A stretch of 45,477 nt of DNA from an uncultured Candidatus Actinomarina sp. (GTDB taxonomy: Bacteria > Actinomycetota > Acidimicrobiia > Actinomarinales > Actinomarinaceae): NCBI GenBank assembly GCA_902510965.1, contig CABXDM010000004.1, forward strand, positions 1 to 45,477. The letters run 5' to 3'. The translations under genes were made by a program, and so were the position numbers. Below the pieces are notes generated by a model, which saw nothing but the letters and a program-made list of their open reading frames with translations, made no database searches and was not told where the DNA came from. Below are positions 25,586 to 29,368 of the stretch, piece after piece (within the stretch, counting starts at the first letter, position 1; every line of letters begins with the position of its first letter).

Positions 25586-26584
25586 ATGTTAAAACTTATT
25601 ATTAAGATTCTTGAAGTTTTCACTTTGGATTACATACCTAAGTTCCCAATTTCTATGAGAACACGCCTATTTTACATAATTTTGCCTCTCAGAAAATATA
25701 GAGATAAGATCCGCATGAGCAAACCAGTTAATCAGGTAACTTACCAAGAAAGAGTTGAATTCGCAAAAGTTTCTCGTGACGGTATAAATTATTCTGGGAT
25801 TAAATTAAATGAATTTCATCCAGATATCGAGATAACAAAGATGGAAAATGCTAAATTCAATACTCACAAGCTAAGTCCAAAGAATCCTAAAACAGATGCA
25901 TATGCAATATATTTTCATGGAGGAGGTTATTATTCTGGAAGTGTAATCTCTCATAAGAATCTGTTATCTCAAATAACAGCATCAATAAATATGGTTACTT
26001 ATATATTTGAATATAGACTCTCTCCTGAAGCGGTATTTCCAAATGCGCACGATGATGCAAAAGAAATAGTTACATTTCTAGATAATATTGAAGAAGGTAA
26101 GAATTCAATATGGATAGGTGAATCTGCTGGTGGTGGATTAGCAACTGGATTATGCGTCGATGACAAATTCTCACTTAGACCTAAAAAACTAGTACTTATG
26201 TCGCCATGGCTAGATTTATCTGATAAAAATAAAGATAGAAATTTTCTCAAAAACAAAGATATTTTAATTTTATTAGATGGGATGCACATGATGGGGGAGT
26301 ATTATTCAGGAGATCATGATCCGTCAAATCCAATTCTCTCGCCTGTTTTTGCAGATATAAAATCATTTCCAGATGTTCTAATTCAAGTCTGCTCTAATGA
26401 GTTGCTTTATAATGATGCAGTTGAATTCTCCAAAAAATTAGAATTGATCAACAGTAAACATGAGTTACAAGTTTGGGATGATTTGTGGCATGCTTGGCAA
26501 TTCTTTCCTATTAAGGAAGCAGAAGAGGCAAGGGAAAAGATAACAAAATTTATTAATACAGAGTCTTACTCTTCATCTAAGTGA
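25586..26584 (+). CDS. Alpha/beta hydrolase (HSL-like esterase)
   Basis: YFHGGGYYSGS oxyanion motif; WIGESAGGGLATGL nucleophile elbow; C-terminal DLWHAWQFF His. Confidence 0.88.
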   Translation: MLKLIIKILEVFTLDYIPKFPISMRTRLFYIILPLRKYRDKIRMSKPVNQVTYQERVEFAKVSRDGINYSGIKLNEFHPDIEITKMENAKFNTHKLSPKNPKTDAYAIYFHGGGYYSGSVISHKNLLSQITASINMVTYIFEYRLSPEAVFPNAHDDAKEIVTFLDNIEEGKNSIWIGESAGGGLATGLCVDDKFSLRPKKLVLMSPWLDLSDKNKDRNFLKNKDILILLDGMHMMGEYYSGDHDPSNPILSPVFADIKSFPDVLIQVCSNELLYNDAVEFSKKLELINSKHELQVWDDLWHAWQFFPIKEAEEAREKITKFINTESYSSSK

Positions 26585-27312
26585 TGTAATGCAAACCCGT
26601 AGGGGAGCTCTAATCGATTTTCCTTCATTACCTTATTGTTAGTAAGCAAATCTTTTGTTTTTCCATTTTCTGTTATTAATCCACTATTAACAACAATACT
26701 TTTTGGACAAATTTCTAAGGCCATCGGCAAATCGTGAGTAACAAGAACTATAGAGATTTCTAATGACAGTAATATATCAATTAATTCTCTTCGTGAAGAG
26801 GGGTCAAGATTTGAGCTGGGCTCATCAAGCACCAAAAGCTGGGGCTTAGATGCAAGGACACTAGCAATAGCGACTTTTCTTTTTTGTCCAAAGCTCAGAT
26901 GATGTGGAGCTTTTTCCTGATAATCATTCATTCCAACCATTTTTAATGCTTCTTCAGCATTCTCTCTACTGGCCTCTTCTGAAAACCCAAAATTCTTTGG
27001 ACCAAACATAACATCTTCTAAGACAGTAGGCATGAACAACTGATCGTCAGGATCTTGAAAAACAACGCCTACTGTTTTTCTAATTTCAGCTAAATTATCT
27101 TCAACAAACTCTAAATTATTTAATTTAATAGAACCATCCATTTCACCAAGGATGCCGTTTAAATGAAGTATTAGGGTAGTTTTTCCTGCACCATTTGGTC
27201 CAAGTATTCCGAGAGAATCACCCTCTTCAAGGTCAAAGCTAATTTCATTAAGAGCTTTATAGCCGTCTGGATATTCGTAGGTTAAATTAGAGATTTCTAA
27301 ATACTTACTCAT
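26566..27312 (-). CDS. Energy-coupling factor/CbiO-type ABC transporter ATPase
   Basis: GPNGAGKTT Walker A, LSFGQKRKVAIA signature, LLVLDEPSSNLDP Walker B. Confidence 0.93.
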   Translation of the reverse strand: MSKYLEISNLTYEYPDGYKALNEISFDLEEGDSLGILGPNGAGKTTLILHLNGILGEMDGSIKLNNLEFVEDNLAEIRKTVGVVFQDPDDQLFMPTVLEDVMFGPKNFGFSEEASRENAEEALKMVGMNDYQEKAPHHLSFGQKRKVAIASVLASKPQLLVLDEPSSNLDPSSRRELIDILLSLEISIVLVTHDLPMALEICPKSIVVNSGLITENGKTKDLLTNNKVMKENRLELPYGFALHHLDEE

Positions 27313-28070
27313 AAGCTAATATCCAAGACTAAAACGAAGACTGATATTGTTGTGAGAAACATTAGATAATTTGATTTGGTATATTCTCTATCTTGTAATT
27401 CAATCACACCGGTAAAACCTCTTGAAATCATTGAAAGATAAACTCTTTCACCACGTTCGTAGCCTCTAATTAGCATAGCTCCTGAGGCATAGGCTATGGG
27501 AAGTAAAGTCTTAATGCCCTTTTCTATATAGCCTCGAGATTGCATTGAAATTTTTACTCTTTTAAATTCATCTATAAAAACATCAATGTATCTGATAGAA
27601 AAGGACATTATTGCGATTATTATTGAGGGCAATCTAAGCTTCTGAAGTCCATAAATTATTTCAATGTTAGTAGTTGTGGCAGTAAGAATAATTCCCATTG
27701 AAAGACCAGCTGTAGCTTTAAAGAGTATTGCAAACATCTCTAGTAGGCCAGTTTTATAGATATCGAAGGTAAAGATAGTTGTAACTACATCATTATTACC
27801 ACTGCTTAAAAAGGGCAAAAATAGTGCAAATAAGATGAAGGGAATATCTAAAGTTAGTCTTTTGAGATAAGTCTTGATCGGAATTTTTGAATATCTAATA
27901 ATAAGAAAAACTATGAGTGTATGGGACAGAATTTGAATGGGATTAATAATTTTTGAAAAAGCAATTGAAATGACAATCAACAATACAGAAAGAATTTTAA
28001 GTTGAGGACTTATGCTATGGAGTTGTGATTTACCATGAAGAGATAAATGATGAGAATGTGTTGTTTGCAT
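27309..28070 (-). CDS. ECF transporter T component (CbiQ/EcfT family) with His-rich N-terminus
   Basis: Membrane protein with SMQSRGY and SMISRGF Ala-Arg-Gly-type motifs; next to the ATPase; N-term MQTTHSHHLSLHGKSQLH. Confidence 0.88.
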   Translation of the reverse strand: MQTTHSHHLSLHGKSQLHSISPQLKILSVLLIVISIAFSKIINPIQILSHTLIVFLIIRYSKIPIKTYLKRLTLDIPFILFALFLPFLSSGNNDVVTTIFTFDIYKTGLLEMFAILFKATAGLSMGIILTATTTNIEIIYGLQKLRLPSIIIAIMSFSIRYIDVFIDEFKRVKISMQSRGYIEKGIKTLLPIAYASGAMLIRGYERGERVYLSMISRGFTGVIELQDREYTKSNYLMFLTTISVFVLVLDISL

Positions 28071-28083
28071 AAGTTCATATTAA

Positions 28084-28098
28084 TGCAAACAGTTTGCA
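28084..28098. promoter_or_regulatory. Candidate Fur-family operator, perfect 7-1-7 palindrome TGCAAAC-A-GTTTGCA
   Basis: Inverted repeat in the 38-bp gap between the fur-like gene and ECF T gene; a third half-site GTTTGCAT at 28063-28070 spans the T start codon. Confidence 0.5.
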
Positions 28099-28108
28099 AA
28101 TAGAATAA

Positions 28109-28525
28109 TTATTTACAGTTTCCGCAGGCTCCAGAATAAATAAAATTATTATGGATTTTTGTAAACTGTGTCTCTTGGATCAACAGGCTATTAATTTTAT
28201 TGTAGGTCTTAGAGCTAACATCTAAAATTTTATTACAATTTATACATATTATGTGCATAGTGTTCTCATTATTTTTTAAAAAATAAATTCCTGAACCGTG
28301 CGCTTGATGAAGGTGTGCTATTAATCCTATTTCTCCCAATAGTTCTAAAGTTCTGTAAACAGTAGCAAGGTCTATATTTGAATTTTTTTTAATTACCTTC
28401 TGGTATATTTCGTCAACAGTAAAGTGTGCGTGTCCAGATTCTTCAAGAATTTTACATATAAGTTCTCTTGATTGTGTTACTCTATGACCTTTTTTCTTAA
28501 TCTGACTTATCAATTCCATGTTCAA
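28109..28525 (-). CDS. Fur family metalloregulator (Fur/Zur/Nur type unresolved)
   Basis: GHRVTQSRELICKILEES, HFTVDEIYQKV, LATVYRTLELL, HIICINCNKILDV Cys motif, C-terminal SGACGNCK. Confidence 0.92.
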   Translation of the reverse strand: MNMELISQIKKKGHRVTQSRELICKILEESGHAHFTVDEIYQKVIKKNSNIDLATVYRTLELLGEIGLIAHLHQAHGSGIYFLKNNENTMHIICINCNKILDVSSKTYNKINSLLIQETQFTKIHNNFIYSGACGNCK

Positions 28526-28558
28526 AGTATAATTTACTTGAACCAGAAAATTAATTTT

Positions 28559-29032
28559 ATGAAAAATTCAATTATTAAAATACTAAACAGATATAGCTTA
28601 ATTTATTTACCATTTGGATGGGTTGTTGGTCTGGCAGTCATTTTCATTGCTTATAAGCCTATTGCTATTTTATATTTTTTAAGCTTTGTAGTATTGGGTT
28701 CATTTTTTGGTCTCTATTTATTTACTTCAAATAGAGGTAAAGTTATAGATGATCATGACTTTGCAGCAAGTCCATTCACAATTATTGAGTATTATTCCGA
28801 TTATTGACTTGGATGTAGTGCTTCAAAATTCATAGTTAATGAATTCAAAAAAAACAAACCAGAAATCCCAATTGTCTCTGTCAATGCTTCAAAGAAGGAT
28901 TACAACGAGATAGTTGAGAAGTATGGTTTAGAATTTACACCAACTTATGTTCTCGTTGATAATAATGCTGAAAAAATTTATAAAAGAGTCGGTAATTTCA
29001 AACTAGAAAAATTCACATCCCTTACAATATAA
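28559..29032 (+). CDS. Candidate selenocysteine-containing membrane-anchored thioredoxin-like protein; in-frame TGA 28805-28807 read as Sec in UxxC
   Basis: N-terminal TM segments, then FTIIEYYSDY-(TGA)-LGCSASKFIVNEFKKNKPEIPIVSVNASKKDYNEIVEKYGLEFTPTYVLVDNNAEKIYKRVGNFKLEKFTSLTI*; open frame after TGA; cis-Pro TPTYVLVD typical of Trx fold. Confidence 0.72.
28827..28845 (+). promoter_or_regulatory. Candidate bacterial SECIS-like hairpin
   Basis: AATTCAT-AGTTA-ATGAATT 7-bp stem, 5-nt loop with G at loop position 2; starts 19 nt after the TGA. Confidence 0.45.
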
Positions 29033-29368
29033 TTAAGCTATTTTATCACCAACAGATGCATTTATTTCTGGTGACAATAGTTCAACTGTACGATCTTTAG
29101 AAATTGAACCCAATACCAAGCATTGACTCATTATTGGACCAATTTGTCTGTCACCAAGATTAATTATTGCGATACATTTTCTACCAAGGAGTGATTTTTT
29201 ACTGTAATTTGTCACTTGAGCACTAGTTTTCTTAATTCCAATTTCTTTTCCAAAATTTATTTTGATAATATAGGAAGGATTTTTCGCTTCAGGAAAGTCT
29301 AGAACATCAAGAATTTCACCAACTCGAATATCTAGTGAAGTGAAATTTTTTAAGTTATCCTGTCCCAT
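29033..29368 (-). CDS. tRNA-binding (EMAP-II/CsaA-like) domain protein
   Basis: LDIRVGEILDVLDFPEAKNPSYIIKINFG, VTNYSKKSLLGRKCIAIINLGDRQIGPIMSQCLVLG. Confidence 0.85.
   Translation of the reverse strand: MGQDNLKNFTSLDIRVGEILDVLDFPEAKNPSYIIKINFGKEIGIKKTSAQVTNYSKKSLLGRKCIAIINLGDRQIGPIMSQCLVLGSISKDRTVELLSPEINASVGDKIA

Follow-up and report, generated by a model that had tools for sequence, protein, structure and literature searches.

The 45,477-nucleotide stretch of DNA that we analysed (the window), from an uncultured Candidatus Actinomarina sp., contains a gene, here called trx-Sec, that almost certainly encodes a selenoprotein: SelB and a hairpin downstream of an in-frame UGA would insert selenocysteine (Sec) at residue 83 of a membrane-anchored thioredoxin with a ULGC active site, the redox domain of which most likely lies in the cytoplasm. 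The original prediction of a candidate selenocysteine thioredoxin draws support from the Sec machinery of the genus, the conservation of the TGA, purifying selection downstream of it and a covarying stem-loop. The features of the locus are as follows.

28109 to 28525, minus strand: Fur-family regulator (PF01475), divergent neighbour given for context only; same order in the 30 loci compared
28559 to 29032, plus strand: trx-Sec gene, predicted membrane-anchored seleno-thioredoxin of 157 residues; frame open through one TGA, as in 33/33 genus homologues
28598 to 28651, plus strand: predicted transmembrane helix 1, residues 14-31 approximately (hydropathy; AF2 helix 2-31)
28664 to 28726, plus strand: predicted transmembrane helix 2, residues 36-56 approximately (hydropathy; AF2 helix 34-58)
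28766 to 29023, plus strand: thioredoxin-fold domain, residues 70-155 approximately (PF00085; AF2 model matches PDB thioredoxins)
28805 to 28807, plus strand: UGA codon for the proposed Sec83, with which the redox motif ULGC begins; TGA in 30/30 aligned homologues and in G001
28814 to 28816, plus strand: TGT codon for Cys86, the putative resolving Cys of ULGC; invariant
28827 to 28845, plus strand: SECIS-type stem-loop with a 7-bp stem (28827-28833/28839-28845) and the loop AGTTA (28834-28838); covariation, silent-site peak
28940 to 28942, plus strand: CCA codon of cis-Pro128, in the TPT motif facing the active site; invariant
29033 to 29368, minus strand: CsaA-like tRNA-binding protein (NF007494/PF01588), conserved neighbour given for context only

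Between the ATG at 28559 and the TAA at 29030-29032, the trx-Sec frame is interrupted by a single in-frame TGA (28805-28807), in the context EYYSDY-U-LGC-SASKF, with the TPT cis-Pro motif downstream. The original description of the TGA, TAA, Cys and cis-Pro was confirmed, as was the continuation of the frame to the TAA; the statement that it stays open for 75 more codons was right about the open frame and wrong about the count, there being 74 sense codons before the TAA is reached. The ORF caller predicted a gene at 28472-28807, running from an upstream TTG to the TGA, and the alignment of homologues places the conserved start at ATG 28559. Since a standard ORF caller ends trx-Sec at the UGA, truncation and mis-annotation of the protein are likely. 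Among 104 long TGA-ending ORFs of the window's genome, none has an open stretch of at least 75 codons beyond the TGA, which argues that the arrangement in trx-Sec is not a chance extension.

The comparison within the genus covered 42 genomes, of which 33 carry the gene, the window's own (G000) among them; the latter is a Candidatus Actinomarinales draft of 810 kb in 37 contigs, 67% complete, and another Candidatus Actinomarinales genome has an almost identical locus (L031; 99% protein identity). Each of the 33 homologues has exactly one in-frame TGA, at protein identities reaching down to 47%. In the 31 homologues read in detail, comprising all 30 that were aligned and G001, the most divergent, the TGA occupies the same codon; two further homologues have one TGA each. 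No version with Cys (TGC or TGT) at this codon was seen among the 33, and the nine genomes without trx-Sec are also without the CsaA-like neighbour, so that the stretch is either missing from these drafts or was lost together with its neighbour, rather than persisting in a Cys form. Over the first 25 codons past the TGA, nucleotide differences at the first, second and third codon positions amount to 0.16, 0.05 and 0.40, and on this pattern of substitution the C-terminal half, beyond the TGA, is under purifying selection. The sequence decay after the TGA that would have marked a pseudogene was not seen; the 74 downstream codons are conserved.

A search of the phylum recovered remote homologues outside the class, most of them with a TGA, and TGA was present in 7/7 distant homologues aligned; two remote relatives, G450 and G598, carry Cys at the site (CPPC). 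Alignment of relatives at this codon, TGA throughout the genus and Cys in remote homologues, therefore agrees with the original placement of the TGA at the first redox Cys. The gene order ECF ATPase, CbiQ, Fur, trx-Sec, CsaA-like protein and FMN reductase is kept at the 30 loci examined, of which one is incomplete at a contig end. In the window, the genes for the ECF transporter ATPase, CbiQ and the Fur-family regulator occupy 26566-28525 and are divergent from trx-Sec, at a distance of about 35-40 bp.

The candidate SECIS stem-loop begins 22 nt after the start of the TGA, has the genus sequence AATTCAT-AGTTR-ATGAATT and coincides with the peak of silent-site conservation in trx-Sec, the gene-wide maximum in the genus lying at codons +6 to +12 past the TGA (five-codon windows). 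Within the genus alone, RNAalifold and single-sequence folds were unconvincing because the sequences are too similar, and covariation was limited to one pair. The stem, initially placed from the genus sequences, was later recovered in distant homologues (seven aligned) at the identical distance, with stems that include AGTCCAT/ATGGGCT and AGCCCAT/ATGGGCT. Pairing holds in 93.8% of cells across the 16 sequences, and six of the seven pairs show compensatory change; none of 500 shuffles was as good, and slid controls scored far lower. The invariant columns are the UGA, the TG of the Cys codon, the G-U at loop positions 2-3 and one A. As judged from these alignments, the covariation of the stem is decisive only once the distant homologues are added. 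A covariance model (R1) run on G000 found the trx-Sec locus at an E value of 5e-12 (next best, 0.28); its training set contained the locus's own sequence, so this search tests specificity only.

The bacterial SECIS model specifies a loop of 3-9 nt with a G in the first two positions and frequently a G or U next to it, a stem of 4-16 bp, a distance from UGA to loop of 16-37 nt and an energy limit of -7.5 kcal/mol (PMC13188914). The geometry of the trx-Sec hairpin falls within these bounds (5-nt loop AGTTR, 7 bp, 26-nt spacing), and the predicted element matches the model except for its weak folding: the AU-rich minimal hairpin, at -3.5 kcal/mol in G000 and -5.8 in G013, misses the energy limit, which three distant homologues satisfy (-8.6 to -12.8 kcal/mol). 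Some bacterial SECIS elements depart from the model, according to the same review (PMC13188914).

Sec machinery is present in the genus. A tRNA-Sec with the anticodon TCA is present in the window's own assembly (75 bits) and in 40 of the 42 genus genomes; in a sample of 346 genomes from the class, this genus included, 221 have one above the cut-off, which indicates that Sec use is common around the genus. SelD, which carries its own in-frame TGA, is likewise encoded in the window's assembly and by 40/42 genomes of the genus. Its gene in G000 (contig C3, 21535-22572, plus strand; locus L116) has the TGA at the active site, in the context GSG-TGA-ACK. A selA gene scores above the cut-off in 34/42 genomes and adjoins a selB-like ORF; the best of these ORFs reaches 223 bits, below the NCBIfam selB cut-off of 242, so the selB-like name rests partly on position. 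The window's own assembly has tRNA-Sec and SelD, and neither selA nor selB was found in it, an absence that we attribute to its 67% completeness and to the end of contig C10, which in synteny falls shortly before the place of selA and selB in G037; both were found in the genus.

A first scan for UGA-UGA matches between G000 and G037 yielded mostly shadow-frame matches and was redone keeping the best frame per position; matches in rRNA or tRNA regions, in shadow frames or near the ends of ORFs were then set aside by inspection. SelD, an AhpD-like protein and trx-Sec were left, and these three are a minimum because genes missing from the incomplete G000 fell outside the comparison. The AhpD-like gene occurs in 33/42 genus genomes, each time with at least one in-frame TGA. 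In G000, this peroxidase-related protein (contig C9, 22746-23351, minus strand; loci L130 and L237; NCBIfam TIGR01926) has a CxxU motif (ECEY-TGA), and the sequence 3' of the TGA can fold as a hairpin with a GGTC loop.

The joined product was said to be thioredoxin-like and membrane anchored, and both descriptions are supported. It passes the PF00085 cut-off (25.2 versus 23.5 bits), and the AF2 model (mean pLDDT, 78) contains a thioredoxin-like domain whose best PDB matches are thioredoxins; U83 and C86, of the CxxC-type motif, and the cis-Pro P128 are conserved in the homologues. The two predicted transmembrane helices support an anchor. The mean number of K and R residues is 4.2 at the N terminus, 0.2 in the short loop and 1.6 in the stretch after helix 2, a distribution that, by the positive-inside rule, would put both ends of trx-Sec in the cytoplasm, and the redox domain probably faces the same compartment. 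Read from sequence, the remote homologues G618 and G492 have two transmembrane segments as well, and several others resemble lipoproteins or single-pass proteins, a form in which the domain would sit outside the membrane.

Taken alone, the window is compatible with a nonsense mutation, a pseudogene or a sequencing error at the active-site Cys codon, and the ORF caller does place the end of the gene there. That 33 separate genomes share one in-frame TGA, to 47% identity and with the downstream half under purifying selection, makes such an origin wholly implausible, as the original prediction had leaned towards saying; the conservation of the TGA across the genus refutes it. A genome-wide alternative code, with UGA read as Trp or some other ordinary amino acid, would likewise give an open frame, but the 104 long ORFs that end in TGA have no comparable extension, in-frame TGA amid conserved protein remained after inspection only in SelD, the AhpD-like protein and trx-Sec, and the remote homologues have Cys, not Trp, at the site. 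On the TGA-ending ORFs and the Cys of the remote homologues, we reject recoding of this kind, which was rightly thought improbable from the outset and now has virtually no likelihood.

Two further explanations accept that the UGA is special. The Sec tRNA might recode it while Cys or another residue enters part or all of the product, and Cys could conceivably be inserted under selenium scarcity; against this, 40/42 genomes retain SelD, the maker of the selenium donor and a UGA protein in its own right, and none of the trx-Sec homologues in the genus was seen with TGC or TGT. We consider such misinsertion very unlikely. Slightly less so, though still improbable, is a UGA that serves mainly as a selenium-dependent switch, such that without selenium an 82-residue peptide with two transmembrane segments is released to a role of its own. 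The 82-residue product would be a clean transmembrane hairpin, and its transmembrane segments are moderately conserved, but the best conserved stretch of the protein comes after the UGA.

We therefore return to trx-Sec as a full-length selenoprotein. SelB carrying Sec-tRNA(UCA) would bind the hairpin just downstream of the UGA at 28805, selenocysteine would enter at residue 83 to create the ULGC active site, and the N-terminal hairpin of two transmembrane helices would hold the thioredoxin domain, which most likely faces the cytoplasm. Oxidised substrates (disulfide, sulfenic or peroxidatic) would then be attacked by Sec83, and Cys86 would resolve the mixed selenenylsulfide. We infer that the inserted residue is Sec, and likewise the topology, the reductase direction and the substrate. 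The protein is probably a reductase with Sec83 as nucleophile and Cys86 as resolving residue, and its substrates probably belong to peroxide or sulfoxide defence at the membrane. G000 also encodes an ordinary WCGPC thioredoxin and TrxB, so trx-Sec would be an addition to this pair, not a substitute. The neighbours of two homologues point to redox or peroxide defence: in G571 (L256, C5:45500-48500), a TrxB-like flavoprotein comes directly after the seleno-thioredoxin homologue, which is lipoprotein-like, and in G347 (L251, C26:1-2800), three UGA proteins stand in a row, the trx-Sec homologue between a peroxiredoxin (TPV-U-T) and a formate dehydrogenase alpha-like protein (RI-U-H), the latter name being our reading of its sequence.

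Sec-containing thioredoxin (Trx, PF00085, UxxC) is a family in a review of the prokaryotic selenoproteome (PMC13188914), and such thioredoxins occur in marine metagenomes (PMC1088965, PMC2398784). Like them, trx-Sec combines a thioredoxin domain, predicted Sec in place of the N-terminal active-site Cys and a downstream SECIS of the bacterial type in marine bacteria; unlike them, it has two N-terminal helices as a membrane anchor, its motif is ULGC, and none of its homologues in the genus was seen with Cys at the site. It scores 24.2 bits against the thioredoxin equivalog TIGR01068, far below the cut-off of 96.8, and no NCBIfam model exceeded its cut-off for trx-Sec. The hypothetical selenoprotein GOS_C (NF045500) is likewise a marine Trx-like UxxC selenoprotein, with its function unassigned (PMC2398784), but NF045500 is not among the models matching trx-Sec, even at a lax threshold. 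A membrane-linked thioredoxin domain is also shared with the C-terminal domain of DsbD and the DsbD-like selenoprotein TsoB, a likeness seen in weak profile matches of a two-transmembrane relative and weak PDB sequence matches to DsbD; however, trx-Sec is too short for the DsbD membrane core or a rhodanese domain, and its domain is predicted to be cytoplasmic, whereas theirs are periplasmic.

The biology is thus of a known type, that of Trx-type UxxC selenoproteins; the evidence here is strong, and no earlier report was found for this order. The search for Sec use in Actinomarina or Actinomarinales took in a set of open-access papers, and metagenomic studies may hold reads of trx-Sec under 'Trx'. 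Selenate reduction has been described for a sister order of Actinomarinales. Whether the anchored seleno-thioredoxins constitute a previously unnamed actinobacterial family, in which Sec is favoured over Cys across distant lineages and which in streamlined Actinomarina supplies one of only about three proteins that justify retention of the whole Sec machinery, is a proposal that we regard as evenly balanced. Candidatus Actinomarina is abundant in the surface ocean and has a very small genome. Sec machinery kept for a handful of redox proteins would tie selenium supply to the fitness of Actinomarina and make this lineage a case for studying what Sec costs an organism with a streamlined genome.
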